Source: Schistosoma haematobium (taxonomy: Eukaryota; Platyhelminthes; Trematoda; Strigeidida; Schistosomatidae). From it: a DNA stretch of 64,000 nt. The stretch spans positions 63,586,591 to 63,650,590 of the forward strand of contig NC_067195.1 of the NCBI RefSeq assembly GCF_000699445.3. The letters run 5' to 3'. Positions 13,496-54,010 of the stretch are shown piece after piece (position 1 is the stretch's first letter; every line of letters starts with the position of its first letter). The notes beneath the pieces are model-generated. The model was not told the origin of the DNA, made no database searches, and worked only from the letters and a program-made list of their open reading frames with translations. A program made the position numbers and the translations under genes.

Positions 13496-13499
13496 AATC

Positions 13500-15465: not shown

Positions 15466-18375
15466 AATATTATTGTTCTTTCTCCTTAAAGCATATTACC
15501 AGCCACCACGATGTCTTTTATAGTACCTTTTTGCAACTTGTGCAGTGAAAGGTCGTAGGATTTTCATAAAAGCGCCTGAAATAACTATGCGATTAATGGA
15601 CATAACGATAAGTTAAAACAAATAAAAAACATATAACCTGTTGAAATAATTAGATGGCAGAAACACGTAGCACAGATATTTAAGCAGAACGCCGTCAAGA
15701 CTGTTTCTAGCTCCTGGACGATATTCAAAAATTAGTAAATTTTAATTATATCAAACTACTATCCACAGAATCGACTGTAGTTAACCTCATTACTTACACT
15801 ACCTCTTCTCTCTCTCCTGACTCTAGTTCGTTATGTTTTTTCCCAATCTTGATAGGGGTCGAGGGACTAAGTTAATTTCCTTTAAATATTGTTATACTAT
15901 GGACAGTTGAACTGTCTCTCATAACATCCTGCCCGTCGCCCTAATCATCTGCTTTAAAATTAAATCATGACACCATCTTCTACTAGCTACTCACTTTTCA
16001 ACCAGTAAGTTACAAGTTCAAACTATCGTCGAATTTGGTTTGGACGGCCGAATAATAGCCCCACACTAACAGTGTGATTTGAACCGTACATGGCGAATGA
16101 ATTACATTTGACACTTCTTAACGTTTTCTAAGTCTTACTATAGACATGTCGATGCCTGTATTTTTGATGTGTAAACATGTCTAACACTACCTGTCACCGA
16201 TTCTTTTTTATCACCTCTTCTGCTTTCGTTTCCTAATGACTGCATAAATTTTCGTCAATTTATGCTTGAGTCGACTTCGCTGCCAGTGATGTACAGATCA
16301 TATCGACATTCATCTTATATTCATCATTTTAGTAGGTGCTTCTAAAATCCGCTGGTCTTCCGTAATCTGTTTTAAGTTATTAATATATAGTTGTCGTGTT
16401 CCCAGCTATCTGAACGTTATCGTTCTGAGCTGCTTCAGGATGAATATATGAAGACAAGGGTCAGATTGTGAATAAGACAAGCTTATCTAGTGTTGGTTGT
16501 GCTTGAATTTGTCATTCCTCAGTTAACCACATAGTATTAGAATCTTTCTTCTTGAAGATCCGTAAATGGAAGCTGATTTGTCATTATATATGGAAATTAT
16601 ATTTGAAATAATCTCAGCGATTGAAATTTAAATAGGGAAGCTGATTTGTTTTAAAGGTTCTACTGACCGAAGAGTATGGACACAGTCCATGGAACGAGTT
16701 CTCGAAGGTGATTACGCATAGCACTTTTAGTCTTATCCTTTAGTGTGTTATTAATGTATTCAACATTTTTGCTTAACAGCATGGAGTGGTTAGTTGAAAT
16801 GTAGGTTAGACACCTAATATTTAGGTACTTGTACTAGATTTTTATTCTCTTATCTTGTTTTGTTCCAATGTGACTGGTTTTTTCTTTCCCTACTAGGTGT
16901 ATTCAGACTATCGTCGCTCTCTGATGCTTCTCGTGTGTTTTAGTTCTTGTACAGACTTCTAAGTTAAATAAACTTCAATGCACTTAGATTCTTCCTTGTT
17001 TTATTTCTAATTAACTCTGGTTTAAACACTTACTACTTTTATCTTCACTTTTGGACCAGTAACGGGACACTATTTGAAGGTGTCATTAGCCGAACATCGA
17101 ACTACAGTTCGATTGAAATATTTTCCCTTTGCTGTTTAAATAGTCACAGTTGTTGAATTAAACACAAACTAATCAAGTATATGACTTTCATCATTTGTAG
17201 ATAGTACCGATAAATTTCCCAACGAATGTTTCTTCGTAAGTTAGGCAGGCTTTACGAGGAAAAGTAGTTCTACTTTAAATGTACTAAACAAACGACATTT
17301 TAATTATTCAGGACGTAGCGAATTGTGATCTTCGCAACCACTTGACCGAAGAGTAAATGACTGTACACCACGCCCCACAGTACCAGTGTACATACCCCCA
17401 TATACATATGGTGTAGCTACTGAATTTCATAGGAAAAAGTAGCTGTGCGACTCTGGGTCAGATTTCCTGTGAGTTTTAAAACAATTCTGGGAATAAACTA
17501 ACTCGTTTATCTGACGTCGGTTGTATATTTCGCTGGAATTTTTCATGTTTTCATTGCTAGTTCCTTATTTCCTGAGTTGGTGCTTTTGAATACTGATATT
17601 GTTACAGTGGTCGTATTTAGCAATCAAATTACTTTCCAGATTACCAGAAATTAAATAAATATTCTTCATATGGAAAGTGTAGTTAGAAATCTTATCGTCA
17701 AACCCTTACTTTTCAAAGCTGTAACTTTACATCGCAGTCTTGCCTTCGGGAGTTTGGTCACTTACACTTTAGGCGGTAACTGAACTACTGAATCGGATCT
17801 CGGTTGTCATGTAACGGTCCCGGCAACTCGAGGCCAGTAAACTTCCAAGTACGTGTTATGTCACTAGACGCTCCACTTTCGGAAACCTTAATATTGGTTT
17901 AAAACCGCACCCGGACACTAGCTTCCTGCTTCTTGGTCACTGTCGTTGGTCCGAATTTCGACCTTGAGGAACGGAAGAGGTCTGTTGCTTATTTGTGTCT
18001 TCTACTGACTGTAAGAACACGGAATATATATAACTATGTGTTGCCCGTTGACTGGATGTGTAGCTCATATGCTGTGACCTAGTTGACACCAATGTCATTG
18101 GGATTAACAATCAACCTAGCTTATCCTATTTCGATAGCATGTGAACAGTTCCTTTAGCTATTGGCCCGAATGAATAAGATATTACCAAATTAATTTATTA
18201 CGGGAAAAGATTAGAAACGTACACAGTGAAACCGCTTCCACATGCCTCGACCTGTTCAGTGATTCACCGTACAGTATAGAAATGGTTTACCACGAAGAAT
18301 AGTTGGGGATCAGTGACATTTTATCGGCTCCAAATAGCGACTAAATATAAGCTTCGAGTTCGCTGCAGTCGACTG

Positions 18376-18500
18376 GGTTGTTTTATTTAAACACATAAGC
18401 ATTGGCACAAGGAGGCACCAAATAAATGTGCTCCACATAAGTCATTCGATTTGTGTGAGGGTTGGGATACTACCTGGGTGTCCAAACCGAAGCAGGAATT
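18376..18500 (+). repeat. Repeat family F fragment
   Basis: About 125 bp matches the start of the longer repeat at 44660-45310. The landmarks are CAAGGAGGCACCAAATA, GTCATTCGAT and CCAAACCGAAGCAGG. It is embedded in the duplicated 3.4-kb block, so it occurs again near 50897-51020. Confidence 0.75.
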
Positions 18501-18976
18501 CGATTGAAATGACATACTGGCAATTCTGCCCATAAGTTTCCAGCTTATGAAGAATTTAAAGAACTTGACAAAAACGCGAACAAGCTTATCTGTAATAGAT
18601 GTGCTATGATAACTCTCCCACAAATATATATAGAAATGTCTGTGTTTGTAACAGAGGTATTAAACCGGATAGGAAGGCCATGATACATAGAAAACACCGA
18701 GCTATGCTAAATTAAGGTAAAGCGGCTGTGTAATATAATATTTATTTGTGTATGTCTGAGTTCGCGTACATCCGTAAGACCAGATGAAACAATGATAAAA
18801 TATCCAAAGGATATTGTGTTGTTTTTTAAAGATTGCACATCTAAGCATAATAATACACAAAATGTGTCGAATTTCATGATAAATAGCGTGAGCTTAACTA
18901 TGAACAGGTACAAAACGCAGCGGGAGAAAAATGATCTGTATTCAAAGCTGTAAAACGAATTGTCAATTCAAAGTCG

Positions 18977-18988
18977 TAGCTATATATA
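18977..18988 (+). promoter_or_regulatory. TATA-like motif upstream of the satellite ORF
   Basis: The A/T stretch CTATATATAG lies about 110 bp before the ATG at 19095 and is preserved in copy 2 near 51497. It could be a core promoter for transcripts of the array, but such strings are common in A/T-rich DNA and nothing else supports it. Confidence 0.2.
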
Positions 18989-19094
18989 GTTGCGGCTCTT
19001 CGATCATATCTCATCGTTTCTTCATTTCTGTCGTTGATGATTGGAACTCACGCTTCGGTGATATAACAGTTTCCGGAAAAATTATGTTCTTAAA

Positions 19095-20723
19095 ATGAAG
19101 ATCAACATTACAATACATTATCACTTCAATTCATCATTCGCCATACAACTGTACGATCCCACATTGAAACAGCATCATTGCCATCTCACCCACTATATGG
19201 AATCATCCTTCTCTGTTGTTCCCAATGCGACGACAGACAACGCTAGTGCGTCTCTGCGCTTTCAGGAACAAGAACAACTGCACAACTACACTCAACAAAA
19301 TAACCTCTCTCAAACACTAACAAACAACACAATCAACAGACACCACGTCATTCACACACACACAAACACAAACACACACAATAAACTAAACGCTCTTACA
19401 CTTATCACGCAAACAAACACGTCGCTAGAAACACAAACAATCATCAATACCACACTACATTATCACTTCAATTCATCATTCGCCATACAACTGTACGATC
19501 CCACATTGAAACAGCATCATTGCCATCTCACCCACTATATGGAATCATCCTTCTCTGTTGTTCCCAATGCGACGACAGACAACGCTAGTGCGTCTCTGCG
19601 CTTTCAGGAACAAGAACAACTGCACAACTACACTCAACAAAATAACCTCTCTCAAACACTAACAAACAACACAATCAACAGACACCACGTCATTCACACA
19701 CACACAAACACAAACACACACAATAAACTAAACGCTCTTACACTTATCACGCAAACAAACACGTCGCTAGAAACACAAACAATCATCAATACCACACTAC
19801 ATTATCACTTCAATTCATCATTCGCCATACAACTGTACGATCCCACATTGAAACAGCATCATTGCCATCTCACCCACTATATGGAATCATCCTTCTCTGT
19901 TGTTCCCAATGCGACGACAGACAACGCTAGTGCGTCTCTGCGCTTTCAGGAACAAGAACAACTGCACAACTACACTCAACAAAATAACCTCTCTCAAACA
20001 CTAACAAACAACACAATCAACAGACACCACGTCATTCACACACACACAAACACAAACACACACAATAAACTAAACGCTCTTACACTTATCACGCAAACAA
20101 ACACGTCGCTAGAAACACAAACAATCATCAATACCACACTACATTATCACTTCAATTCATCATTCGCCATACAACTGTACGATCCCACATTGAAACAGCA
20201 TCATTGCCATCTCACCCACTATATGGAATCATCCTTCTCTGTTGTTCCCAATGCGACGACAGACAACGCTAGTGCGTCTCTGCGCTTTCAGGAACAAGAA
20301 CAACTGCACAACTACACTCAACAAAATAACCTCTCTCAAACACTAACAAACAACACAATCAACAGACACCACGTCATTCACACACACACACACACAAACA
20401 CACACAATAAACTAAACGCTCTTACACTTATCACGCAAACAAACACGTCGCTAGAAACACAAACAATCATCAATACCACACTACATTATCACTTCAATTC
20501 ATCATTCGCCATACAACTGTACGATCCCACATTGAAACAGCATCATTGCCATCTCACCCACTATATGGAATCATCCTTCTCTGTTGTTCCCAATGCGACG
20601 ACAGACAACGCTAGTGCGTCTCTGCGCTTTCAGGAACAAAAACAACTGCACAACTACACTCAACAAAATAACCTCTTTCAAAATCTAACGACCAAAGTCT
20701 CTCCCACTCTTACAGTTGACTAG
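19095..20723 (+). CDS. Open frame through satellite array 1 (doubtful protein)
   Basis: An ATG at 19095 opens a 542-codon frame that ends in TAG at 20721-20723. Because the unit is 342 bp, each adds exactly 114 residues in the same frame. The predicted product is a repeat protein rich in Thr, Asn, Gln and His, with no signal peptide, membrane segment or known domain. Against a real gene: in array 2 units range from about 324 to 352 bp and the frame closes early (TAA at 51847-51849), and in array 3 most units carry frames of only 71-75 codons. The frame is most likely a by-product of a stop-poor, CA-rich satellite whose period happens to divide by three. A transcript here would change that view. 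Confidence 0.25.
   Translation: MKINITIHYHFNSSFAIQLYDPTLKQHHCHLTHYMESSFSVVPNATTDNASASLRFQEQEQLHNYTQQNNLSQTLTNNTINRHHVIHTHTNTNTHNKLNALTLITQTNTSLETQTIINTTLHYHFNSSFAIQLYDPTLKQHHCHLTHYMESSFSVVPNATTDNASASLRFQEQEQLHNYTQQNNLSQTLTNNTINRHHVIHTHTNTNTHNKLNALTLITQTNTSLETQTIINTTLHYHFNSSFAIQLYDPTLKQHHCHLTHYMESSFSVVPNATTDNASASLRFQEQEQLHNYTQQNNLSQTLTNNTINRHHVIHTHTNTNTHNKLNALTLITQTNTSLETQTIINTTLHYHFNSSFAIQLYDPTLKQHHCHLTHYMESSFSVVPNATTDNASASLRFQEQEQLHNYTQQNNLSQTLTNNTINRHHVIHTHTHTNTHNKLNALTLITQTNTSLETQTIINTTLHYHFNSSFAIQLYDPTLKQHHCHLTHYMESSFSVVPNATTDNASASLRFQEQKQLHNYTQQNNLFQNLTTKVSPTLTVD
19115..20690 (+). repeat. Satellite array 1: about 4.6 units of exactly 342 bp
   Basis: The block ACATTATCACTTCAATTC begins at 19115, 19457, 19799, 20141 and 20483, giving four successive periods of 342 bp. 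Units are nearly identical; the visible changes lie in the CA-rich tract (near 20390) and in the last unit, which has AAACAA where the others have AGAACAA. Each unit has a conserved core of about 240 bp and a variable CA/AAC-rich part. The array ends at about 20690 in unrelated sequence. The same satellite forms arrays 2 and 3. Confidence 0.97.
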
Positions 20724-20889
20724 ATCAAACTGGCGCGTTGAGTACTTGTCCTTGATCTTAAACTCTGGATTTTCTGTTCTGATATCATGGAACTAGGTTT
20801 TTGTGTTGCTAGATCATTTTCGGTGGTTTTTGAGGATATAATAGTTGTCTTCGTAGCATGTTATCTAATGTGAGTAATTTAAGTTGTAT

Positions 20890-21230
20890 TTTTTAACTGG
20901 TTCAACATGTATCGGCGAATCAATCGTGAAAATCAATTGGTTTGTAAGACTTTGACATTGGATGGTGACCACACTGGTTTTAATGAACTCGCCTAGCTGA
21001 GGGCGCTCGGTCATGCATCTGCACCAGATCACGACTGAAAACGACATGCTCAACATCCCCTACAGTCGATAGCCAGATAAGATCTTTCGATCCTCGATAT
21101 AATGGTAGTTTATCAAATATATATCTTCGAACCTCCTCTTTTCTGTCTTTGGATTTCACTTGGTGGGTACGATTCATATTAGGGGGTATTAATGGTTAAA
21201 GCGTTTTCAAATTCTGAAGACCTGTGTTAT
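20890..21230 (-). repeat. Dispersed repeat family A, copy 2
   Basis: This matches 26830-27150 in reverse complement at high similarity and 5290-5650 more loosely. Landmarks on the + strand are TGACATTGGATGGTGACCA, GGGCGCTCGGTCATGCATC and CACTTGGTGGGTACGATTC. A 63-65-codon minus-strand ORF starting MNRTHQVKSKDRKEEVRR is shared with copy 3, but its high conservation follows from recent common origin and does not prove coding. Confidence 0.8.
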
Positions 21231-21239
21231 CTTCAATCT

Positions 21240-21780
21240 CTACTCGTTTTGGTGTACGTTGTAGTTTGTCTATAAGTCTGAATTTGTCACCATAGCAAGC
21301 TCGTTGATTAGCAGGTTCGCAGTACAATGCTGAGGACAGTCGTCCGTCAAGTTTGGTTAGCGCAAGTATTAGGATTTTAGAGGTGAGTCGTAAGAAATTG
21401 ATTAAGTATAAAGATTGTGGGTGATGGTGTAACGTCATGTGCTATCTTAAACCCACACACTTTATTCTAGCTTCCAAACAAGCCAATCTATCCATTCTTC
21501 TTAATCCACGTTTTGAACTTTTCACTTATTGGCTTATTTGTCCCGACTGTTTTTACATGGACGTATGTGTATGTACTTCTTATCTCACTCATCATATGTC
21601 TGTGGTTTATTTTATCTGACTATGAACATCGATTAAATCGATTTGGCTCACTCACCTTCTTCGTTTCGCATCATTTTGTTTTGCTTCGCTTTCCGAGCAA
21701 CGACTGTACACAATATACGTATTCAAAATTTCACTCTCTTATTTGAGTTACGTAATTCAGTTTTGCATCAACGTTCCCGT
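21240..21780. other. No gene recognised
   Basis: A/T-rich DNA between repeat A and a degraded endonuclease region. Short open frames overlap one another without family resemblance. Confidence 0.45.
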
Positions 21781-23235: not shown

Positions 23236-23239
23236 TTTA

Positions 23240-26825: not shown

Positions 26826-26829
26826 ATTT

Positions 26830-29039: not shown

Positions 29040-31019
29040 ATGTTATGTGGTCGATCATCGGATGTTCCTGAAACAAAAGAGGGTATCTTGGGTATGTTAG
29101 TAGTTTTGTGTCATTACTTACGTCTAACATAGACAAAAATGATGTTGTTAAAGGCAGTGCAATGGATGAGACTGGACAGCGCGATTGGGACGAAAAATCC
29201 AGGATCCAGGATGAAGACGAACTGTTAGGTAGATCAGATGAAAATCACGACTTGTCATATGAAACCCATTCTAACGAAACCGGTAGCTTTAGTGAGTTCC
29301 ACACTGCAGTTGAAGGCTTTAACGATTCGGAAGAGGGGAGTGGTGACTTTTCCATCAACACGAAAAAAAGCAATTTCGTCAAAATCTCTACCGTTACATC
29401 AGAGGATGTCGATCCTTTTGAGGATGTCACTGCTGCTACTAATGAAATAACCGACAGAAAAACAATTTCACCGATTGAATGGGACAGAGTTTCTGATGAC
29501 GAAAGCGAGAACAGAGACGAACTTCATGCCGACGTCCCAGGTGATGAGTTTTCTAAAGAGGAAGAAGCCCAAAACTCAGTTCGGTTTTCTGGTGTCAGAG
29601 CTCATACCTGCACAAGTGAGAGAGGAAATCACATTGATTCGCGTCTTTTCCGTTCTACAAAGTATTTTCTTATCAAGAGCAATAATTTTGAGAATATCGA
29701 AATAGCGAAGTCTCGGAATGTATGGGCTACGACAAAGGGCAATGAGACAAGACTGAATAAAGCATTTTTTGACTACAACAATGTTTTGCTCATATTTTCT
29801 GTGCGTGAGAGTGGTAGATTTCAAGGATTTGCGCGCATTATCGCATCGTCAGACCCTCGGATCAAGGTTGACTGGGTGTTATCTTCACGTATGAGTACTG
29901 GTCTCCTGAGTAATCCTTTTCGAATTAAATGGATATCCAAGTTTGTTGTTCATTTCAGTTGTTTTGATTGCTAGGTCTGACCTCCCTTTCACAAAGACTG
30001 GGCATCTCTTGAATGCATGGAATGAAGACAAACCTGTGAAAATCGGGAGAGATGGTCAGGTGAGTATATTGAATATCAACTCATTGCATTTCAGGAAATC
30101 GAACCTACATGTGGCGAGGCACTATGCCGGTGTTTCGGTAAAGATGAACTTGGGGAAGAACAGAAACAGCCGAACACAGTTCAAGCTATTGGCGAAAGAA
30201 TCAGTCGTAGAAACGCATTTGAGAGACTTGGAAAAATCGTTGGTCGCCATGGTCAAACGAGTCATAATGGTTCTCGTGTTGTTGGGTTGAGCAATCAAGA
30301 CAACACTGGACTGTTGGGGGATGCTACTGGGACAAACCAACGATATATGGCATCTACTGAACGAAGGAGCTTGATGAATTACCCTTCTATAACACCTTTG
30401 ATCAACAACGATGGTTCGCGGCTAACCTCAACGGGAACTACACCACTATTGCAAGTAAACGCAGCTGCCGCTGCAATGGCAGCAGCTGCAGCTATGGCTG
30501 CAATCAAATCATCTGGACCACAGTCAATAGGTGCTTTTGCCCGAAGTGGAGCGAACACTCTCAATCCCACAATGAACTCCAGACTGCCCATACAACCACC
30601 TAATTTCCCTAACATATTCTCAACCTTCCCAAATTCGGGCGGTTCTTTCTCACGTTTGAATGTATCTAGTTCCTCTAACGCAACCCTGCTTCCGTTTTTA
30701 CAACAACAGCAACTTCGTATATCTGGATCAGCGGCGAATGCCGCCGCAGGTGCTGTTCTTTCACAAGCAATACAACAAGCTCGTAGCCTATCCAATCCTA
30801 ATGTGATAAGTCGACCAGGAATACCACTCAATCCTGTGGCAAACAGTGTGCCTGTAAAGTCTCATGCCGAAAGAAGTCGTTCGCGTTCTGCTAGCGACAG
30901 CACAGCTTACAGTTATGCTCGTGAACGTAATCCAAGGCATCGGAGAACTGACGGTTATGTAGAAGAAGAGTCTTCACGATTTGAAACAATTCGACGGAAG
31001 TCACATTCCCCGAGGTTAG
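29040..31019 (+). CDS. YTHDC1: YTHDC1-type m6A reader, 5' exons (YTH domain)
   Basis: The product is a homologue of YTHDC1, a nuclear protein that binds N6-methyladenosine in RNA and affects splicing and export. Inferred exons are 29040-29082, 29133-29940, 29975-30059 and 30095-31019, joined by introns of 50, 34 and 35 nt. All junctions are GT-AG and keep phase. The N-terminus is acidic (Glu/Asp/Ser-rich). The YTH domain starts at [16 protein letters not shown] and continues through [31 protein letters not shown], then (next exon) [11 protein letters not shown] and [13 protein letters not shown], into EIEPTCG. The two cage tryptophans are in VW and DW. After the domain come an alanine-rich run and a Ser/Arg-rich tail. 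The start ATG at 29040 is uncertain; 29162 or an upstream exon are alternatives. The donor at 31019 is chosen because it restores phase with 39894; the stronger-looking 31014 donor does not. Confidence 0.9.
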
Positions 31020-31920
31020 GTGTTATTGAACAGTGGACACAAGAATCAAAAATTTGTGCTAATTTATATATTATTTATATATGGACTGTTTCACATCTAG
31101 TTAACCACATTGTTTTATCGTGCTTTACGTGAACTGTTGAATTTTTTCATTTTTGATGCTAGCAACTTGCTTGTACCATGGCCACATGTGGCTTCCATGA
31201 ACAATTAACATTAGATTTCATATTTTTGAATGTCCGGTTACTAACATAGTTATGATAGTAGGCACGTAAAGAACTAAAAATCTTCAGAGGTTCTTGTGTA
31301 CATCAAATATGCCCATTTTGTAAGTGAAATTTGGCTTAAGTTTGCTTGTGTTGAGGTTTTGTTAGTCTTCATTTCCTGAAGTGAAGTTAATGTTTGGTGG
31401 CATATGATTTAATCCATTTCTTTTTAGGAATAATACAGGTAAACGATGTTTGTGGGTATTTAATTCCCTGTTTTCACGTATTTTGCATTAACATTTGTTT
31501 TCATTTTCAATAATGTGTCTTCGCTCACATGGGAACTCTTGGTTTGGTTTCTATCGTCAAGGAGGCGTGAAATAACATCAAGGCATGGAAATTATGAAAG
31601 TGAGTCAAAATATTTCTGTTGTTTCTAGCTTTCTGGTTCGTGCATATTTCGTCCGTGAATCGCTTAGTGTCGAAGTATATTCGTCGAGTAACGCCCTGTG
31701 TAATGTGACTCATACATAAACACTGGTGAACTATTATTTCAAACATCGGTAAAAGTTTTTCATAGCGTGCACAGTCATAATTACGTCATCAGTTGACTGA
31801 ATATCATGTAAAATGATTTTCCACTGATTGGATCTATGTAACTCCGATTATGTATTTGTAAGCCATCGAACCTCGTGTTCAAATAACCCATCGCTGATCA
31901 ATTAATAGTGCTAATTGATT

Positions 31921-33505
31921 GATAAGTGCGTACAAGAAAGGACAAAAGTCCTCTTGTGACAATCACAGAGGAATCAGTTTGACTAATATAGTGTCTGAAA
32001 TATTAGCTTCAATAATACTTCGACGCCTAACCAAAGCTCGTGAAGAGCAGACTAGAGAAAATCAGTCTGGTTTTCGACCTGGACGTGGTTGTATAGATCA
32101 AATATTCACATTACGTCAGGTTCTAGAACACGTTCAGACGCCCCACAATGGTAGTATTTATCGACCTTAAGGCGGCATTTGTTGATCGTAAGGTTCTATG
32201 GCAGTGTTTGTCACTGAAAGGAGTACCAAAGAAGTACATTAACCTTATAAAGGCTCTCTACTCGAACACAACTGGTAGAGTGAGAGCTTATGGCGAACTA
32301 TCATCAGAATTGATTACCTCAAGTGGTGTTCGTCAGGGCTGTCCACTCTCTCCATTCTTGTTCAACTTTGTCGTTGACATGCTTTTAGAGATAACACTCC
32401 TCATCTAAATTTCCAGGGGTTGAACTTCTACCGGGAGGTTCACTTGTTGACTTAGAATATGCTGATGACATAGTTTTATTTGGTGAAGACGCTGACAAAA
32501 TGCAGAGTCTTCTGACCACTCTAAGCAACAATGCAGGCATGTTCTGCATGCGATTCTCCCCCTCGAAATGCAAAATGTTGCTTCAGGATTGGGTTTCATT
32601 GACACCCGAACTAATGATAAGGAGTGAAGTAATTGATCATGTCGATCGCTTCACTTATCTTGGAAGTCTCATCAGCCCTTGTGGTCTGGTGTGTGACGAA
32701 ATCTCAGCACGGATACAGAAGGCTCGACTAGCTTTTACCAACTTGCGTCATTTATGGCGTAGGCGAGATATCCGTCTATCAACCAAAGGACGGATTTACT
32801 GCGCAGCAGTGAGACATGGCCGGTAAGAGTAGAGGATATTCGTAGGTTACTAGTATTTGATCATATGTGTCTTCGGAACATTGCTCGTATATCCTGGGAC
32901 CATCGAGTAAGTAACACAGTTGTTAGGAAACGGGTACTAGGTAAGGATGGCAAATCAATTGATGACGTAGTGTAACCTCATCAGTTGAGATGGCTGGGAC
33001 ACGTGTTACGTATGCCCAACTACCGACTGCCTCTACGTGCGATGTTCAGTGGTATAGGAGTAGGTTGGAAGAAAGCAAGGGGCGGCCAGACCAAAACATG
33101 GCACAAGTCCATGAAGTCACTGACAAGTGGTCTGAGTCATGTCGGTAGGTGTAGACTACCTGGTTGGGGACCGCGAGACGAAAGCAACCGTTGGTTAGAG
33201 ACCCTGAATGACATGGCTCAAAATCGTTTGCAATGGCGCAGGTGCATACAATCTTTGTGTTCTCCCAAATTTTGATCTCCTTATTCCTCCTTGTCTCTTT
33301 TTTTCTCCTCTCAAATTTATTTCACTGTATTATACTCTTTAAGTAACATCTCCAAACACTAATCTTCCCGATTACTGCTTACACTCTTATTACCTCTACC
33401 ACTACGAGATTTGAATCGACCACTGCATCTCTATGCTGATGTGGTGTGGTAGCTCGAACTGATGTACGTACGTTCGAAGTTTTACGTTGTTACTGATTGA
33501 TTGAC
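31921..33505 (+). pseudogene. RTE-like LINE (family RTE-2), degraded copy in the YTHDC1 intron
   Basis: RT pieces in shifting frames match the intact copy at 57.9-59.8 kb. They are CDNHRGISLTN, AGFRP-type QSGFRPGRGCIDQI, motif A FIDLKAAFVDRK, SGVRQGCPLSPFLFNF, the catalytic YADDIVLFGED, FTYLGSLISP, LRHLWRRRDIRLS, RWLGHVLRMP and GGQTKTWHKS, ending in WRRCIQSL. Frameshifts near 32155 and 32405, a deletion after CAAVR (near 32815) and a TAG... TAA-type break near 32972 disable it. It starts abruptly at the KKGQKSSC block, so it is 5'-truncated. The 3' end is a TGAT/TGAC-type tetranucleotide tail at about 33492-33505, comparable to the GACT tail of the 57-60 kb copies. Confidence 0.9.
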
Positions 33506-33616
33506 AAGAAAATCTGCTAGTAAGTTACTTCCACTGACAACCCATAGATGTCTGGTAATCAAAACGAGAAACATGTTAATCGAGCGCTTATTAATGTTTT
33601 GTTTTGTATTCTTATA

Positions 33617-36600: not shown

Positions 36601-36660
36601 AACCCTTCTCTTTTACCTAGGCTTGGGACCAGCAGTAACTCTAGAAGAGCTTCAGGCGGA
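33617..36660 (-). pseudogene. RTE-clade LINE (RTE-1), copy 3, nearly full length, antisense in the YTHDC1 intron
   Basis: Read on the minus strand it starts with a 5' leader (GGTTAGCGACCCCATCCC near 36570), then the endonuclease N-terminus (TMWETGKTSQIATEMRR, GISETHRTQ). The connector follows (MEDDWKGIKEALTSTCQDV), then RT blocks ([42 protein letters not shown]-type [16 protein letters not shown]). Lesions seen: the GAGT duplication at about 34605-34615 that ends the RT frame after HYGVST, a compressed and frameshifted catalytic region (34340-34500), and no AAGT tail. From 33622 to 35547 it is nearly identical to copy 4 at 45317-47242. Being antisense, it would be removed with the intron. Confidence 0.92.
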
Positions 36661-37198
36661 GTTAATGATAGCAAAGCTTAGAATATATTTCAGGAATAAC
36701 TATAAAAGGCACGAAGGGCAAAAAATAAAGGCGGTTATGGCATTGGTGATAGGATATGGACTGTAGTAATGATAGTTGACAAATTAACTTGTGTGACGAA
36801 AAGCCTAAATTAATACCCAAATTCAAAATATAGGGGAAGACAAATGCATTCAGTTCATTGCGACCATTTTGATCTATTTCATGAATGGTCTCTACCGACA
36901 ACTCATGCTTAACTTGCGGATATTCGTCCGCTACACAATTTCGTATGAGACCAGGTTTTGGGTTGATTGATTGATGAGGTTTTTCGTTTTGACCGAACTC
37001 AACCGTTTTCCGAAACTATATATACCAACATAACGCAGATATACGATTTGACCGAACACTCCTAAAATTCAACTACCTTATTAAAGAATTCGTGAAAACC
37101 TAGCAGCTTCCAAACTTGTACATGAGCTTATTTACCACGTATTCGCCTTAGATTTATTTGGTATAGTAGGGATGTATCTGCTTCATGTTCTGTGTGGA

Positions 37199-37330
37199 GT
37201 GGTTGCTTAGTGGGTAGGGAGTTTAACTTCCAGTCACAGTCCATGATTTGAACTTCGCTCCACTTGCTTTGGTTCGGCCGGCTAAGTAATATCACCAGCC
37301 CCCACTTAGAGTATGACTCATACCAAGGTA
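37199..37330 (+). repeat. Possible tRNA-derived SINE head
   Basis: TTGCTTAGTGGGTAGGGAG (37203-37221) resembles a pol III A box. TGATTTGAACTTCGCTCC about 25 bp later resembles a degenerate B box, in the usual order. The boundaries and any tail are not visible. It may instead be chance. Confidence 0.35.
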
Positions 37331-37614
37331 CCTACTGAATAATTAATTTCTTTAACAATTTTCGATCCTTGGGGAACAGATGACGTGGGTTAAGAGGTGT
37401 TAAAGTAATTTGGATTACCTGTAGATTCATCGGTTAAGTACGGTAATTAACTCCAAAATCTGCTTTCTAAACTAAATTTGTGAGTGCCATTGGAATTAAG
37501 TGCATCAGATAGCCTGACAAGAAATTAGTCTCTTGGCTGGAGACTCAATGACTTTGGGTATGTAGATTATATATAATATAAATGGGTCTTTTAAATTATT
37601 TGTTTGAAAATGCT

Positions 37615-38142
37615 CAGGTTGAGTTTCTATACGTCTGCTTGAAAAATGTTGCTTCTAGACTTGCTGGTACTCATTTTGACAACACAGGATGATGTTTTTG
37701 AGCAAGTTGGTCACGTGTTTCCGTAATCTTGTCAAGTTTGGTGAATCAGGATTTCAAAATTATCATAAATTAATCGGAAACTGTCGACGTACATCGCCTG
37801 TAACTCAAGCAAGTTTGTTTGTCTATCGATAGGCATGTAAACTTATCAATCCAGACCGTTTCGTCGTGACCGTAAAGTATAGACTACTTGGTTACAAGCA
37901 TTTGAACCTAAGTATGTTCAAAGCACTAGATATAACTACAGGGAAAGTATTACTGATATTCAGCATAAAATACCAGATCCTGGTAACAAATTGGTAGAAA
38001 CTTCGTCAGCGACCCGTGGTAATTGGCGAGATTACCAAAGTACGTAACCAACTTGCTCAAAAACACCATTGTGTTGTCAAAATAAGTATTAACCAGTCCA
38101 GAAGCAACACTTTATATCCGAATGTATCGAAGCTCATCCGGA
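37615..38142. repeat. Inverted repeat with about 115-bp arms
   Basis: 37615-37731 is the imperfect reverse complement of 38029-38142. Shared blocks are GTTGCTTCTRGACT, ATTTTGACAACACA and GTTTTTGAGCAAGTTGGT. Arms are about 75-80 percent matched with a spacer of roughly 300 bp. It could be a foldback mobile element or two opposed copies of one repeat. Confidence 0.75.
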
Positions 38143-39893
38143 ACAATTTCATTTAGTAGATCCAATTTTATCGACTTCCTTACCAAACGTATGTATCATT
38201 TACATACTGTAGACCGGTGATATCATTCGAATGTGTTGTACTCTTTCTCCATACGCTTCAATCTATTAACCTTATTCGACTTGATACGTAAGGGAAAAAT
38301 AATGAGCTGGATGAAGTATATCCCAAAGTCATTGGTCAGGATGAACTTACAGAACTAAAGACAGGTATCTGGACAAAAGTTCTTTTGGAGATTTTTAGCA
38401 TCTGAAATCTTCCTTTGAATCTGATTGGTGGAAGAGAGACCAATTTCAGTGCCTGAATCATTTACGCCCGGAGCATACAGTCTAAATCGTTGAGGGTTTA
38501 CTTTCGTAACACCTTTATGGAAATAATAATGGATCATATTTCATGTTAGATTTTACTATGTCAGACGTTGCTTTTGGTTACTTTGAATACCACACCAAGC
38601 TGAAGAACCAACTTAAAACTCCCAGTTCACACAGCCTCATTTTTCGCGAAGTTCAATCGACTTTATTTAGGTTTTTCCCATAATAATTCATGAGAAGTAC
38701 TTTACAACTCTAGGTTAGCAATCGTTTTAGTGTACTAAGGTGTCTTAAAACAATTCTCCATACAGAGTTCTCAATCCGGAAAAACATTGTTGTACAGTTA
38801 ATAACTAAGAAACTGACATTTTTCTGGTGATTCCTTCATCTTTTAGATTTGTGCACGGTCCTTTTAAAATTTCACATAAAGCACTCGTCTTCTTCACTGG
38901 GTTGAGAGTAAAACGGTGGTGATCGAATACGTTTTCTTGCCAGAACCGTAAAAAAGGAAGCTGTGGACTACATTCGGTTACCGTTTACTATTCCCGGTAC
39001 CAAAAATATCTGAATACTTTGTTATTCATTATCAAACATGGGGTTGGGTTCTTCGTTAATATTTTTGGTCACTTGGTTTGTGCATCAAGTATTAAAAGCT
39101 AGGTTTGGCTATAAAGCGTTCTGAGAAAGTATGAGTATATGGTACCTACTTAAGTAATTTCTCTTCTAATGTAAGAAGTGAAACTTTATCGATAGTAAGT
39201 AAGTATTGAATAAGCTTGAGGTCTCAGAACCTCTTGACGACATGAAAGGAGAATTATTTTATTATTGATGTAATTTTTCAGCCTTCAAGGAGGTGTATTT
39301 TGTACGTAAAGTGATTTTAGTCACAGCTGTTCTAATCATTAGTTTATGCTATTATCTCCAAAACCTTCAATATTTTAACTTCCTCTGCACAACTGAATTC
39401 AACTTTCAATCACTTATCTGTTCAACTTTTCAAACAAGCTCTAAAATGTTTACGTTGAGTCATGCAATGGAGTTTTTTACATGTACTTCCGCAATAGATA
39501 TAATCTGGTTTTGAATTAATGATTATTTTACATTTGTTGTCATATAGCTGTCAATATTCATTCGAATGAATATTATAATTTGTGCTCTGTGAGACATCAT
39601 TTGTATTTGTATATAAATGTAAAGTATCGCTTATGCCTAACTAAAAATAAAAATATCTACAAAACGTTCATGTGTATGCTTGCAACTGATATCATAGAAA
39701 TGTGTTTTATCCTCTTTGTTACACCCATTGCTTAAAAACAGTATTGTCATAAAATAAGCTTTTTCCAACTAACCCTAAAAAACACCAGTGAAATTGACCC
39801 AAGTTGTGATCGTTTATATACTTGTAAGTAATTACTCAATGACTAATTTTATGATCTTACATCTACTTGTTTTGCTATTTTTATCGTGTGTAG

Positions 39894-41414
39894 GACCTCG
39901 CGGGCATAGATCTCGTAGTCGATCCAGTTCTCTCCCTATTGATCGTAATTTATTGATGACTTGGGTATGTTAGTGAATTTCGAAGTTATACGTCATAATT
40001 TTTCCCTGCAGGACTATGACGACTATGTTCAACAAGTTAGTCGTGGTATGCGACCAAATATGTATGGTGACTTGGTGAGTTTTGCCTTGAGTAGAACTTC
40101 ATGTTTCTTATGTCTATGGGTTTGCATAACTTATTATAGACAGTTTTTTTTCAAAAAGTCTTTTGTCACACTTTAAATCCTGAACTGTCAGGTCAGTCAT
40201 AGAGCGTGTTCGTGGTATACAGTAATTGGCATTCGGACCAGTTTTTTGCCTTTCCTCTTTGTAATTTTACACAAGCTCCTTTTTCTGTATTTAAAGTCAT
40301 TATGCTAGAATACTTGAATTATCTGTCGCAATTGTTTTTTACTTGATGGTTAATACTCTGGTATAAATTTGTTTTTTGGTTCTCCGATTCACTGAAGTAA
40401 TACTAAGTTAGATTTTCCAGGCCCCGATTATTATTTTGTTGGGACCATTATATTTATTAGGAAACTCGGTGTTGGGAATCAACTTATTACATGCCATGAG
40501 GAAATCTCAAACAATCCAATGTTGTTCACTTCTGAGGAGTCCCATACTAGGACGAAACGGCCGTCCAATACTTCCACGTTTTCAATGGTGATATAGCTTA
40601 GATTGATTCATGAATTCAACTATTAAAAAAAACTTGAGTCTGCCAAATATTCTAAACGTCGAAATTCGTCGATTATTATTTGTTGGTAACCAGACTAATA
40701 ATTCAATTATTTATTTTGTAGGGAAGTCGAGTTGCCGGTTCAAGTGCTTATTTACAAATTCCCCAAAGTCATGAAAATGATCTGAAAGTAAGCTTTCTAC
40801 TAATTACTTGCTTCATATATTATGCTTTAAATTGTATTATTTTCTTCGTGTTGTTAACAGTTGGATTGTAATTTTACGTGCATCTCTTCTCTGTATTTTT
40901 TCAGTATGAAGAAAAAGTAGATGCGTTTTTACGTGGTATTGGATCACGTCCAAAAGTTTCAGGACATGATCACCACTACTCACGCAGTCCTAGCCGTAGC
41001 TGTTCATATAGTCCACCTCCACCTCATCCCCACAACCGTCGTCGTGAATATTGCAGGGGTTCATCATCCTACTCCAGATCCAGGTCTCCTTCCTGTCCAA
41101 GCATACTTTTATCTAAGGTTCGACGTGGAGAGATAGATCCTGATGCTTATCGTCACCGCCCACCATCTCAATATTTATCTCCTCGTAGGAGAGACCATAC
41201 ATGTTCTCACAGCCGCTCTCCTGCAAGCTTCGGTCGTGAACTTCCAGCACAATGGAGAAAGCCTCCACAGGCTTCTGTAGCTCATTCAACTGGAAATAGA
41301 CAACGACACCAGCAAATAGAGGGGCGAGTTCCTTCACACCAAGCACGATCCCCTCGTGTTGTCTCAAGTGGAGGGTCACGAACGTACACTACAAGCAGTC
41401 GTCATCACAAATAG
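39894..41414 (+). CDS. YTHDC1: YTHDC1-type m6A reader, 3' exons (RS-rich C-terminus)
   Basis: These exons continue the gene begun at 29040: 39894-39964, 40012-40074, 40722-40787 and 40905-41414 (TAG stop). Junctions are GT-AG: acceptors GTGTAG, CTGCAG, TTGTAG and TTTCAG; donors GTATGT, GTGAGT and GTAAGC. The inferred coding sequence, all eight exons together, totals 2571 nt or 856 residues plus stop, an exact multiple of three, which supports the model. The product here is Arg/Ser-rich (RGHRSRSRSSS), then an acidic-aromatic DYDDYVQQVSRG segment, YEEKVDAFLRGIGSRP and further RS/proline-rich sequence. RS and Arg-rich C-termini are usual for YTHDC1 and link it to splicing factors. I see no domain other than low-complexity sequence in this part, so its assignment to the same gene rests on phase, strand, composition and the family pattern. 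Confidence 0.8.
40420..40620 (+). repeat. Probable hammerhead-bearing SINE (Smalpha-like) remnant
   Basis: Sequence around the hammerhead core, especially the downstream GTCCAATACTTCCACG block, looks like the conserved 3' part of the schistosome hammerhead SINE. Tail A's near 40625 (AAAAAAAA) may be its end. The 5' pol III part is not clear, so the limits are estimates. Confidence 0.5.
40532..40565 (+). ncRNA. Hammerhead-ribozyme-like core in a SINE remnant
   Basis: CTGAGGA (40532-40538) fits the conserved CUGANGA box. It is followed by stem II (GTCC, loop, GGAC), the GAAA box and CGGCCG, which makes the tiny two-base-pair stem III typical of schistosome SINE hammerheads, then the GTC cleavage site at 40563-40565. 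Stem I is poor: bases before CTGA (CACTT) and after GTC (CAATA) hardly pair. The core looks intact but the ribozyme is probably weak or inactive. It lies sense in the intron 40075-40721 of the YTHDC1-type gene. Confidence 0.7.
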
Positions 41415-41423
41415 CTGGTTGAT

Positions 41424-41982: not shown

Positions 41983-41999
41983 GCGAATTTTAAATTCAT

Positions 42000-42825: not shown

Positions 42826-42829
42826 AAAA

Positions 42830-43040: not shown

Positions 43041-43084
43041 ATTCTTGCACTAAGCTTTCTTTCTTTCGTGTTAGCTAGCTAGTG

Positions 43085-45310: not shown

Positions 45311-45316
45311 AATTAC

Positions 45317-47254: not shown

Positions 47255-48213
47255 ATCCTTTATTGATCGAGACTTCAGAGGAATTGGCTTTTAATATGAT
47301 GAAGTGTTATGGTGTCGTAAGGATTAGTAGCATAAAATAACTGTTAGATGAAGTTAGTTTATTTGTCATTAACTCGATTAATTAGAACATAAATATTAGG
47401 ACTATTTTTTAAGCATATTATCTGCCACACGAAGTGATGTGGGATCCTTCTATTGCAACACTAACATAGCGGTGATATAATCGACTTGTTTCGTGAATTC
47501 TTCGGTTTTTTGTTTCTTTTTTCTCATTAGTCGCAACTGGCTTACTGTCATATGATATAAAACGTCTTCACATTTTCCTCTTAAAAGCGGACATTGATTG
47601 GTCGATAAAGATGAGGGCACCTGATATACTTTTGTACTATAGCTGTAGACGTCACCGATCTTCTTATGATTGCTTGATTAGTGACTTGTGAAGGTTAGTC
47701 TAGCGTTGATATCGTGGACTCAACCAAACTCAATGAGACCACTACTTGAGATTCTGGACTTAAAGTCGATGAATTCTCACTAAATTCTGTCTTCGCAATT
47801 GGTAGTGCGTTGCATAGCTCCTCTGGTGAAAAACACTGCTACTGCGTTTTAGTACCTTAAGTTCCTGAGACGTAGTGCAATGTTTTCTGTTTGGTTACAT
47901 CCATAAGCAGGATGGCCGTCTGTCAGTGAGCAAGACGAATCCGACCTCTACCACCAAACGGAATGTCCGTATTTTAGTTTTAGAAATCACAAATACAGTT
48001 GAGAATCGGTATATTTGTTTTCTAGAAAGTTATAAGGTGGAGTTATCACGTTTACATCCACCTTCTTGTCCGAAACCTTGAAGACTTTACGGGCTTTTTG
48101 TTCTTAAACTGCACTTGGACGTCGATAGGTTACTATGGCTAATATATTGGTAAAAGCAGATTCTTTTTTGATCCTCACAAATCGATTTATTCTTGTGTAC
48201 TGAGAAGACCGCG
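47255..48213. other. No gene recognised; family E repeat at 48020-48190
   Basis: The first 750 bp are unique-looking. From about 48020, sequence matches 12045-12200 closely (TTTACATCCACCTTCTTG), then a piece related to 13165-13210. Family E stops at the left edge of the 3.4-kb block. Confidence 0.6.
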
Positions 48214-51200
48214 GTCAAGACTGTTTCTAGCTCCTGGACGATATTCAAAAATTAGTAAATTTTAATTATATCAAACTACTATCCACAGAATCGACTGTAG
48301 TTAACCTCATTACTTACACTACCTCTTCTCTCTCTCCTGACTCTAGTTCGTTATGTTTTTTCCCAATCTTGATAGGGGTCGAGGGACTAAGTTAATTTCC
48401 TTTAAATATTGTTATACTATGGACAGTTGAACTGCCTCTCATAACATCCTGCCCGTCGCCCTAATCATCTGCTTTAAAATTAAATCATGACACCATCTTC
48501 TACTAGCTACTCACTTTTCAACCAGTAAGTTACAAGTTCAAACTATCGTCGAATTTGGTTTGGACGGCCGAATAATAGCCCCACACTAACAGTGTGATTT
48601 GAACCGTACATGGCGAATGAATTACATTTGACACTTCTTAACGTTTTCTAAGTCTTACTATAGACATGTCGATGCCTGTATTTTTGATGTGTAAACATGT
48701 CTAACACTACCTGTCACCGATTCTTTTTATCACCTCTTCTGCTTTCGTTTCTAATGACTGCATAAATTTTCGTCAATTTATGCTTGAGTCGACTTCGCTG
48801 CCAGTGATGTACAGATCATATCGACATTCATCTTATATTCATCATTTTAGTAGGTGCTTCTAAAATCCGCTGGTCTTCCGTAATCTGTTTTAAGTTATTA
48901 ATATATAGTTGTCGTGTTCCCAGCTATCTGAACGTTATCGTTCTGAGCTGCTTCAGGATGAATATATGAAGACAAGGGTCAGATTGTGAATAAGACAAGC
49001 TTATCTAGTGTTGGTTGTGCTTGAATTTGTCATTCCTCAGTTAACCACATAGTATTAGAATCTTTCTTCTTGAAGATCCGTAAATGGAAGCTGATTTGTC
49101 ATTATATATGGAAATTATATTTGAAATAATCTCAGCGATTGAAATTTAAATAGGGAAGCTGATTTGTTTTAAAGGTTCTACTGACCGAAGAGTATGGACA
49201 CAGTCCATGGAACGAGTTCTCGAAGGTGATTACGCATAGCACTTTTAGTCTTATCCTTTAGTGTGTTATTAATGTATTCAACATTTTTGCTTAACAGCAT
49301 GGAGTGGTTAGTTGAAATGTAGGTTAGACACCTAATATTTAGGTACTTGTACTAGATTTTTATTCTCTTATCTTGTTTTGTTCCAATGTGACTGGTTTTT
49401 TTCTTTCCCTACTAGGTGTATTCAGACTATCGTCGCTCTCTGATGCTTCTCGTGTGTTTTAGTTCTTGTACAGACTTCTAAGTTAAATAAACTTCAATGC
49501 ACTTAGATTCTTCCTTGTTTTATTTCTAATTAACTCTGGTTTAAACACTTACTACTTTTATCTTCACTTTTGGACCAGTAACGGGACACTATTTGAAGGT
49601 GTCATTAGCCGAACATCGAACTACAGTTCGATTGAAATATTTTCCCTTTGCTGTTTAAATAGTCACAGTTGTTGAATTAAACACAAACTAATCAAGTATA
49701 TGACTTTCATCATTTGTAGATAGTACCGATAAATTTCCCAACGAATGTTTCTTCGTAAGTTAGGCAGGCTTTACGAGGAAAAGTAGTTCTACTTTAAATG
49801 TACTAAACAAACGACATTTTAATTATTCAGGACGTAGCGAATTGTGATCTTCGCAACCACTTGACCGAAGAGTAAATGACTGTACACCACGCCCCACAGT
49901 ACCAGTGTACATACCCCCATATACATATGGTGTAGCTACTGAATTTCATAGGAAAAAGTAGCTGTGCGACTCTGGGTCAGATTTCCTGTGAGTTTTAAAA
50001 CAATTCTGGGAATAAACTAACTCGTTTATCTGACGTCGGTTGTATATTTCGCTGGAATTTTTCATGTTTTCATTGCTAGTTCCTTATTTCCTGAGTTGGT
50101 GCTTTTGAATACTGATATTGTTACAGTGGTCGTATTTAGCAATCAAATTACTTTCCAGATTACCAGAAATTAAATAAATATTCTTCATATGGAAAGTGTA
50201 GTTAGAAATCTTATCGTCAAACCCTTACTTTTCAAAGCTGTAACTTTACATCGCAGTCTTGCCTTCGGGAGTTTGGTCACTTACACTTTAGGCGGTAACT
50301 GAACTACTGAATCGGATCTCGGTTGTCATGTAACGGTCCCGGCAACTCGAGGCCAGTAAACTTCCAAGTACGTGTTATGTCACTAGACGCTCCACTTTCG
50401 GAAACCTTAATATTGGTTTAAAACCGCACCCGGACACTAGCTTCCTGCTTCTTGGTCACTGTCGTTGGTCCGAATTTCGACCTTGAGGAACGGAAGAGGT
50501 CTGTTGCTTATTTGTGTCTTCTACTGACTGTAAGAACACGGAATATATATAACTATGTGTTGCCCGTTGACTGGATGTGTAGCTCATATGCTGTGACCTA
50601 GTTGACACCAATGTCATTGGGATTAACAATCAACCTAGCTTATCCTATTTCGATAGCATGTGAACAGTTCCTTTAGCTATTGGCCCGAATGAATAAGATA
50701 TTACCAAATTAATTTATTACGGGAAAAGATTAGAAACGTACACAGTGAAACCGCTTCCACATGCCTCGACCTGTTCAGTGATTCACCGTACAGTATAGAA
50801 ATGGTTTACCACGAAGAATAGTTGGGGATCAGTGACATTTTATCGGCTCCAAATAGCGACTAAATATAAGCTTCGAGTTCGCTGCAGTCGACTGGGTTGT
50901 TTTATTTAAACACATAAGCATTGGCACAAGGAGGCACCAAATAAATGTGCTCCACATAAGTCATTCGATTTGTGTGAGGGTTGGGATACTACCTGGGTGT
51001 CCAAACCGAAGCAGGAATTCGATTGAAATGACATACTGGCAATTCTGCCCATAAGTTTCCAGCTTATGAAGAATTTAAAGAACTTGACAAAAACGCGAAC
51101 AAGCTTATCTGTAATAGATGTGCTATGATAACTCTCCCACAAATATATATAGAAATGTCTGTGTTTGTAACAGAGGTATTAAACCGGATAGGAAGGCCAT

Positions 51201-51633
51201 GATACATAGAAAACACCGAGCTATGCTAAATTAAGGTAAAGCGGCTGTGTAATATAATATTTATTTGTGTATGTCTGAGTTCGCGTACATCCGTAAGACC
51301 AGATGAAACAATGATAAAATATCCAAAGGATATTGTGTTGTTTTTTAAAGATTGCACATCTAAGCATAATAATACACAAAATGTGTCGAATTTCATGATA
51401 AATAGCGTGAGCTTAACTATGAACAGGTACAAAACGCAGCGGGAGAAAAATGATCTGTATTCAAAGCTGTAAAACGAATTGTCAATTCAAAGTCGTAGCT
51501 ATATATAGTTGCGGCTCTTCGATCAAATCTCATCGTTTCTTAATTTCTGTCGTTGATGATTGGAACTCACGCTTCGGTGATATAACAGTTTCCGGAAAAA
51601 TTATGTTCTTAAAATGAAGATCAACATTACAAT
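48214..51633 (+). repeat. 3.4-kb non-coding block, copy 2
   Basis: This is the near-identical direct copy of 15694-19114. Its left edge (GTCAAGACTGTTTCTAGC) lies at 48214 beside family E. Its right edge runs into satellite array 2. The few differences include a lost T near 48727, a lost C near 48750, a gained T near 49400 and two substitutions near 51525-51542. The small minus-strand ORFs at 50906 and 51226 equal those of copy 1 and are not otherwise supported. Confidence 0.92.
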
Positions 51634-54010
51634 ACATTATCACTTCAATTCATCATTCGCCATACAACTGTACGATCCCACATTGAAACAGCATCATTGC
51701 CATCTCACCCACTATATGGAATCATCCTTCTCTGTTGTTCCCAATGCGACGACAGACAACGCTAGTGCGTCTCTGCGCTTTCAGGAACAAAAACAACTGC
51801 ACAACTACACTCAACAAAATAACCTCTCTCAAACACTAACAAACAACTAAATCGACAGACACCACGGCATTCACACACACAATGAACTAAACGCTCTTAC
51901 ACATATCACGGATATAAACACGTCGCTAGAAACACAAACAATCATCAATACCACATTACATTATCACTTCAATTCATCATTCGCCATACAACTGTACGAT
52001 CCCACATTGAAACAGCATCATTGCCATCTCACCCACTATATGGAATCATCCTTCTCTGTTGTTCCCAATGCGACGACAGACAACGCTAGTGCGTCTCTGC
52101 GCTTTCAGGAACAAGAACAACTGCACAACTACACTCAACAAAATAACCTCTCTCAAACACTAACAAACAACACAATCAGCAGACACCACGTCATTCACAC
52201 ACACAGAAACACAAACACACACAATAAACTAAACGCTCGTACACTTATCACGCAAACAAACACATCGCTAGAAAACACAAACAATCATCAATACCACATT
52301 ACATTATCACTTCAATTCATCATTCGCCATACAACTGTACGATCTCACATTGAAACAGCATCATTGCCATCTCACCCACTATATGGAATCATCCTTCTCT
52401 GTTGTTCCCAATGCGACGACAGACAACGCTTGTGCGTCTCTGCGCTTTCAGGAACAAGAACAACTGCACAACTACACTCAACAAAATAACCTCTCTCAAA
52501 CACTAACAAACAACACAATCAACAGACACCACGTCATTCACACACACACACAAACACAATAAAATAAACGCTCGTACACTTATCACGCAAACAAACACGT
52601 CGCTAGAAACACAAACAATCATCAATACCACATTACATTATCACTTCAATTCATCATTCGCCATACAACTGTACGATCCCACATTGAAACAGCATCATTG
52701 CCATCTCACCCACTATATGGAATCATCCTTCTCTGTTGTTCCCAATGCGACGACAGACAACGCTAGTGCGTCTCTGCGCTTTCAGGAACAAGAACAACTG
52801 CACAACTACACTCAACAAAATAACCTCTCTCAAACACTAACAAACAACACAATCAACAGACACCACGTCATTCACACACACACACAGACACACAGACAAA
52901 CACACACACAATAAACTAAATCCTCTTACACTTATCACGGGAACAATCATGTCGCTAGAAACCCAAACAATCATCAATACCACATTACATTATCACTTCA
53001 ATTCATCATTCGCCATACAACTGTACGATCTCACATTGAAACAGCATCATTGCCATCTCACCCACTATATGGAATCATCCTTCTCTGTTGTTCCCAATGC
53101 GACGACAGACAACGCTAGTGCGTCTCTGCGCTTTCAGGAACAAGAACAACTGCACAACTACACTCAACAAAATAACCTCTCTCAAACACTAACAAACAAC
53201 ACAATCAACAGACACCACGTCATTCACACACACACAAACACAAACACAATAAAATAAACGCTCGTACACTTATCACGCAAACAAACACGTCGCTAGAAAC
53301 ACAAACAATCATCAATACCACATTACATTATCACTTCAATTCATCATTCGCCATACAACTGTACGATCTCACATTGAAACAGCATCATTGCCATCTCACC
53401 CACTATATGGAATCATCCTTCTCTGTTGTTCCCAATGCGACGACAGACAACGCTAGTGCGTCTCTGCGCTTTCAGGAACAAGAACAACTGCACAACTACA
53501 CTCAACAAAATAACCTCTCTCAAACACTAACAAACAACACAATCAACAGACACCACGTCATTCACACACACACAAACACAATAAACTAAACTCTCGTACA
53601 CTTATCACGCAAACAAACACGTCGCTAGAAACACAAACAATCATCAATACCACATTACATTATCACTTCAATTCATCATTCGCCATACAACTGTACGATC
53701 TCACATTGAAACAGCATCATTGCCATCTCACCCACTATATGGAATCATCCTTCTCTGTTGTTCCCAATGCGACGACAGACAACGCTAGTGCGTCTCTGCG
53801 CTTTCAGGAACAAAAACAACTGCACAACTACACTCAACAAAATAACCTCTCTCAAACACTAACAAACAACACAATCAACAGACACCACGTCATTCACACA
53901 CACACATAGACAGACACACAGACAAACACACACACAAAAAAACTAAACCCTCTTACACTTATCACGCAAACAAACACGTCGCTAGAAACACAAATAATCA
54001 TCAATACCTC
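51634..54010 (+). repeat. Satellite array 2: seven units of about 324-353 bp
   Basis: Unit starts (ACATTATCACTTCAATTC) are at 51634, 51958, 52301, 52635, 52987, 53325 and 53657, giving periods of 324, 343, 334, 352, 338 and 332 bp. Nearly all length change lies in the CA/ACAG-rich tract; the core is almost constant. Single-base markers (CCCACATTG or CTCACATTG; GAACAAGAAC or GAACAAAAAC) vary between units. The array is cut at about 54010 by the BEL LTR. Confidence 0.96.

Follow-up and report, generated by a model that had tools for sequence, protein, structure and literature searches.

A near-identical block duplicated around a YTHDC1-type gene on the ZW scaffold of Schistosoma haematobium: probably an old local duplication with a recent gene conversion tract

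Gene conversion between segmental duplications has been described in Drosophila (PMC2588116) and in human (PMC3790853, PMC10172114), and in both it leaves a near-identical middle with more diverged edges; the converted duplications of Drosophila are reported to combine a high-identity middle with elevated edge divergence. Among schistosomes, subtelomeric segmental duplications have been catalogued in S. mansoni (PMC10900676), and simple repeats have been proposed to act in gene conversion of the S. mansoni mucin family SmPoMuc (PMC2576457). Here we analyse a 64,000-nucleotide stretch of the S. haematobium ZW scaffold (RefSeq assembly GCF_000699445.3, contig NC_067195.1, forward-strand positions 63,586,591 to 63,650,590; hereafter the window, with coordinates counted from its first letter), in which a noncoding block of 3.4 kb occurs twice, each copy running into a tandem satellite, on either side of a YTHDC1-type gene (Table 1). 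The sequence suggests that this pair probably goes back to an old local duplication in which interlocus gene conversion has recently homogenised the block. The locus shares its near-identical middle and more diverged edges with the Drosophila and human cases, and differs from them in having two noncoding copies, a left edge set by a retroelement, and an adjoining locus-specific satellite. As in S. mansoni, duplicated DNA lies here in a repeat-rich schistosome chromosome, but the S. mansoni survey kept interchromosomal pairs of >20 kb, whereas the present pair is intrachromosomal and spans about 3.6 kb plus satellite. SmPoMuc is likewise schistosome sequence homogenised by proposed conversion beside simple repeats; there, however, the units are many and gene-internal, and here they are two noncoding blocks. 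A two-copy local duplication with conversion is thus an instance of a known process.

An earlier note on this DNA, made from the letters alone, had described two copies of about 3.4 kb in direct orientation that differ at fewer than ten positions and enter the same satellite, and both statements are borne out. When the window was aligned with itself by BLASTN, 15683-20695 matched 48203-53199 in direct orientation, and global alignment of 15694-19110 with 48214-51630 gave six differences in total: three substitutions (at 15915, 19007 and 19023 in copy-1 coordinates) and three 1-bp indels (at 16204, 16232 and 16877), every one of the latter inside a short T or C run. The copies start 32,520 bp apart, a tandem repeat with units of about 342 bp takes over at the same point in each, and the near-identical pair is a real feature of this sequence. 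Reading frames in the block reach at most 90 codons from stop to stop, and an Rfam scan of block and satellite returned no family at gathering score; at E values up to 1 the matches were CRISPR-DR63 and LPR69, both below that score.

Searches of the assembly with the full block listed two copies, both in the window (best 40 of 2429 candidates scored), and a search with its first 2677 bp again listed two (best 40 of 974), a depth of scoring at which diverged or partial copies could escape. Scoring was likewise confined to the best 40 candidates for the left edge of copy 1 (of 705) and for a long terminal repeat (LTR) of BEL type discussed below (of 621); it was complete or nearly so for the last 600 bp of the block (30 of 30), the satellite (6 of 7), the copy-2 flank (4 of 4), the copy-1 right edge (1 of 1), the YTH domain (7 of 7) and u2af2 (54 of 54). 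The last 600 bp have partial relatives elsewhere at 64-73% identity, and these, together with a 47-bp piece that recurs in LTR-like pairs 4-5 kb apart and other short kinds, account for 29 of the 31 matches to that part. Low in copy number, at least 1 kb long, at least 90% identical and present in two places, the block is a segmental duplication, as had been suggested before. A recent origin, which was also suggested, is probably wrong, given 7.7% divergence in the left flank; the block alone is young in sequence.

The two left flanks had been called unrelated, and immediately beside the block they do look so, because a dispersed retroelement adjoins copy 1 there; farther out they share 183 alignable bases at about 92% identity. 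The copy-2 flank 48016-48198 is collinear with 12046-12201 plus 13166-13207 beside copy 1, where the flank is broken by two insertions, the second of which ends at the block edge. A query of 47914-48513, comprising copy-2 flank and 300 bp of block, had four matches in the assembly, namely itself, block copy 1, 12046-12201 (92%) and 13166-13207 (93%), and the copy-2 left flank is therefore not a dispersed repeat. The first insertion, 12202-13165, has the 14-bp direct repeat AGATTCTTTTTTGA on both sides (at 12188 and 13166) and a perfect 27-bp inverted repeat (12197-12223 and 13077-13103). The second appears to be a retroelement of non-LTR type by our reading of the open reading frame (ORF) at 14569-15465, which has no Pfam match. 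With the 300 bp that end at 15693 as part of the query, 38 of the 40 listed matches fell on this flank alone, at 86-87% identity, and they all stop at window positions 15686-15701 (query 293-308).

Divergence changes abruptly at this edge. With the insertion's repeated stretch excluded, 14 of 183 left-flank positions are substituted and a 1-bp gap is present; in the block from 15694 to 19000 the corresponding figures are 1 of 3305 and three 1-bp gaps (Fisher p = 1.06e-17 for substitutions in flank versus block). Toward the right the change is gradual, with 2 substitutions in 110 bp at the block end (19001-19110) and, in the first satellite unit, 10 in 324 together with an 18-bp gap. In the longer of the two flank pieces, 10 of 12 differences are transitions. 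High identity that shifts abruptly to a diverged paralogous edge, here from 1/3305 to 14/183 with a retroelement terminus at the border, is the pattern of a conversion tract, and on these substitution counts flank and block are incompatible with one clock. As a rough guide, a mutation rate of about 8e-9 per generation would make the flank some millions of generations old and the block tens of thousands.

The history that would best accommodate these data, and that we hold to be probable, begins with a local duplication long ago of a segment that took in the 3.4-kb block, at least about 183 bp of flank to its left and the first part of the satellite, with the copies placed about 32 kb apart. 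The copies would then have diverged and gained transposons, namely the two insertions in the copy-1 left flank and the BEL element that ends the copy-2 array. Later, interlocus gene conversion or a comparable homology-directed repair patch would have overwritten the block alone in one paralogue with the sequence of the other. It is the divergence step that points to a recent overwrite of this kind, and the copy-1 retroelement would explain the left border as the point where homology ends; the right border would fade over the last 100 bp or so of the block, ahead of the array. The (CA)n-bearing satellite beside the block might, speculatively, have supplied the initiating breaks. The copy number in this assembly, the collinear diverged flanks, the divergence jump and the edge identities are observed; what we infer from them is the sequence in which events happened and that the copying took place by conversion. 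An extension of this history, which we consider doubtful, would make the one-locus satellite a local recombination initiator: breaks in the array would repeatedly rewrite the adjoining block from the other copy, non-satellite neighbours would be kept in concert, and the direct repeats on either side of the YTHDC1-type gene would stay recombination-competent in a schistosome pseudoautosomal region.

Several observations weigh against a conversion tract. The part of the diverged left flank that can be compared is short, at 183 bases, and for 15 bases of copy 2 (48199-48213) copy 1 offers no clear equivalent. No target-site duplication of the copy-1 retroelement was seen there, and of the 11 bases to the left of the block 8 agree between the copies; given these features together with the 15-bp orphan stretch, the join could be an end-joining scar. 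On the right, array A1 is closer by BLASTN to A3 (mostly about 98%) than to A2 (about 95-96%), which indicates that the arrays exchange or turn over on their own, and the right-hand divergence is thus weak evidence. Finally, the block differences up to 19000, one substitution and three indels, could lie within reach of long-read assembly error.

That last point bears on whether the second block is an artefact, the assembler or polisher having placed one real block twice. Nanopore reads underlie the published assembly (PMC8846543), and a single substitution with three 1-bp indels in 3305 bp is near the level of residual error. However, both copies have distinct flanks on both sides, where a haplotig should have duplicated the flanks as well; polishing would not be expected to remove 8% divergence; and the arrays beside the two copies clearly differ. 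We therefore think an artefact improbable, and slightly more so than a young segmental duplication, which is itself unlikely. In a young duplication, the block and the start of the array would have been copied once, recently, via template switching or break-induced replication, and would have come to lie beside an older 183-bp paralogous flank by chance. The block identity by itself points to youth, and there are other template-switch-like scars at the locus: the region 57168-57341 looks like one, with a 50-bp retroelement piece at 57227 identical to 59227-59276 and a 59-bp segment repeated on either side of it (57168 and 57283), and where array A3 meets a retroelement (60271-60283) the 9-bp AAGTGTAAG, common to both partners and present also at 58027 and 60614, suggests microhomology joining. 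What argues against a young duplication is that the diverged flank keeps its order and orientation in both copies, lying 15 bp away from the block in copy 2 and separated from the copy-1 block by insertions only, a placement unlikely to arise by chance, and that neither a target-site duplication nor a common right end was found.

The earlier note had also proposed a non-autonomous mobile unit, and a block followed by a tandem array does resemble the left flank and array of the Helentron-type HINE elements that carry satellites in oyster (PMC7492417), which have the same nonrepeated flank ahead of the repeats. Nevertheless, such a unit is hardly credible here, and we set it aside. Two full copies were among the matches listed, and their right ends are unlike, one being the BEL element (copy 2) and the other unique sequence (copy 1); the two right flanks do not match each other, so that the shared right flank with a palindrome of the HINE type is lacking. 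The best direct match that might be a target-site duplication was 4 bp in copy 1, with none in copy 2. In four tests for end-to-end inverted matches of block plus array, the observed score was reached by 17 to 134 of 300 shuffles, and none of 9 inverted pairs was located at the block's ends, in agreement with the previous remark that the block has no terminal repeat. It is equally hard to believe that the block is a functional noncoding element on which selection acts to keep the two copies identical. Extreme identity across 3.3 kb, with a diverged flank alongside, might be read in that way, but selection is a poor explanation because old repeat fragments of 115 bp and 55 bp share the block's identity (some matches of the latter elsewhere are close inverted pairs), and there is neither a long reading frame nor an Rfam family at gathering score. 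Conversion of an old duplication remains the reading that we favour.

Table 1. Features of the window, in window coordinates.
Feature	Position	Strand	Remarks
Copy 1 left flank, part a	12046..12201	+	Homologous to 48016-48171, 92.3% identity
Insertion in copy 1	12202..13165		14-bp flanking direct repeat AGATTCTTTTTTGA; 27-bp inverted repeat inside
Copy 1 left flank, part b	13166..13207	+	Homologous to 48158-48198, 93%
Dispersed retroelement, terminus adjoining block copy 1	13208..15693	-	Left end 13208 inferred
Block copy 1, 3.4-kb noncoding near-identical tract	15694..19110	+	BLASTN, global alignment, genome search
55-bp fragment of another dispersed repeat, within block	16580..16634	+	51 of 53 listed matches to this piece alone
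115-bp dispersed-repeat fragment, within block	18382..18496	+	39 of 41 listed genome matches to this piece alone
Satellite array A1, 4.6 units of 342 bp	19110..20695	+	Tandem-repeat and unit alignment
YTHDC1-type gene between block copies	29108..41414	+	YTH-domain exon to ~29940; exons delimited visually by splice signals
Copy 2 uninterrupted left flank	48016..48213	+	48199-48213 without clear counterpart in copy 1
Block copy 2	48214..51630	+	BLASTN, global alignment, genome search
Satellite array A2, 7 units	51629..54008	+	Tandem-repeat and unit alignment
5' LTR of putative BEL-type retroelement, ends array A2	54011..54595	+	Best 40 of 621 candidates; LTR-like pairs elsewhere
Satellite array A3, inverted	60271..64000	-	Runs ~24.6 kb past window end, parts reading N

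The satellite occurs at this locus and on one unplaced contig (C116), and nowhere else in the assembly (83 matches). On C116 it fills at least 7 kb, and that contig may be a piece of the locus left unplaced, a different allele of it or a copy linked to the W. Among 54 units from the three arrays, positions 1-240 scarcely vary, the main exception being one site at which 20 of the 54 units carry a second base; length variation is found in the CA-rich part. That the three array ends share a unit boundary was considered and ruled out, since the A3 edge fades into decayed units and the A2 end is a BEL insertion; the whole number of 7 units in A2 is taken as coincidence. At the right edge of copy 1, the 237 bp tested are unique and the last A1 unit is decayed. 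The element that ends A2 is assigned to the BEL type because its LTR is followed by an ORF with a DUF1759 domain at 54648; LTR-like pairs occur elsewhere, for example at 35825524 and 35829491 of scaffold C4, and a BEL-type ORF of the window matches an S. haematobium protein over 94% of the query at an identity that rounds to 100%, with a few residue differences.

Consisting of 342-bp units (3 x 114), the satellite stays open for 542 codons in the frame 19095-20723 (+). A predicted S. spindalis protein of 106 amino acids (P0147, from an 89.17-Mb contig) matches the satellite in translation and crosses a unit junction, which indicates that a tandem relative exists in S. spindalis and that the satellite is probably older than that species split; records of this kind may be false proteins, translations of satellite. 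The decayed last unit of A1 reads ...LFQNLTT..., closer than the common unit to the S. spindalis ...PFQKLTT..., as expected if array edges keep older variants. The S. mansoni W-elements known as SMalpha (W36.2, 332-335 bp; PMC8490949) have a similar unit length and are also found on a schistosome sex chromosome, and the comparison, which concerns properties other than the unit sequences themselves, otherwise brings out differences: no hammerhead was found in the present satellite by Rfam at E values up to 1, which led us to reject a hammerhead satellite, and it lies at one locus and on an unplaced contig, in a PAR2-like position and not over the autosomes. The satellite has no match in collections of viral and prokaryote contigs, and no mention of it or of the locus was found in titles and abstract openings of the open-access literature.

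The gene between the blocks encodes a protein of the YTHDC1 type, and YTHDC1 is a reader of N6-methyladenosine (m6A) in other animals. Matches to the YTH domain lie at four places in the assembly, these being the window exon, one site on scaffold C2 and two sites close together on C8; no near-identical second copy of the gene was seen among them, the others lacking the length and score of the window exon. The joined YTH exons matched no schistosome protein among the 120 listed of 707 matches, for which search length limits may be the reason. It had been pointed out that exchange between the direct repeats could delete or duplicate this gene, which is reasonable in principle; there is no sign that it has occurred, no second copy having been seen.

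Other elements were noted in and around the gene. A type I hammerhead ribozyme at 40526-40571 (+) scores 38.5 bits (Rfam gathering score 34) and apparently lies in an intron of the YTHDC1-type gene. Between the segments 33619-35558 and 45314-47253 there are 5 differences in 1940 positions, and TAAAT may be a 5-bp target duplication of the second segment; the pair was considered as a sign of a larger mosaic duplication, which was rejected in that the two are copies of a retroelement, probably an ordinary recent insertion. Rfam also matched mir-3492 at 32647-32724 (-) and 59123-59200 (-), the second inside a reverse-transcriptase ORF and the first in related DNA, and this family may be transposon sequence.

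The locus lies at 63.6 Mb of the 89.2-Mb ZW scaffold (C1). A small GTPase has been placed on S. haematobium chromosome ZW (PMC8846543), and in the same interval, 87.939-87.956 Mb, C1 carries Rab-type GTPase motifs (P-loop, WDTAGQE) that were not seen in that interval of C2. In S. curassoni the Z-specific region extends from 9.2 to 44.2 Mb and the pseudoautosomal region PAR2 from 44.2 to 88.2 Mb (PMC9387932). The u2af2 family gave 29 matches with one over the cut-off, at 30.59 Mb of C1; provided that S. haematobium resembles S. curassoni, u2af2 would fall in the Z-specific region and the window in PAR2. The suggestion of a W/Z repeat holds insofar as the locus is on the ZW scaffold, but its position would be PAR2 by synteny, and the satellite is not chromosome-wide, being limited to one locus and one unplaced contig. 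As a separate observation, S. mansoni and S. japonicum have both a Z and a W copy of u2af2 (PMC8662593), a sex-determination candidate; here, with one match above cut-off, a W copy was not seen in the assembly searched.

None of the features of this locus is surprising as biology, and it is probably an ordinary process with clear edges: a two-copy local duplication, a probable conversion tract and a one-locus satellite alongside. It illustrates that block identity by itself would misdate the duplication, and that a long near-identical repeat beside a satellite need not be mobile. If real, the locus would offer a conversion tract whose edges are defined, on the ZW chromosome of a schistosome, and also two direct repeats through which the YTHDC1-type gene could be deleted or duplicated.

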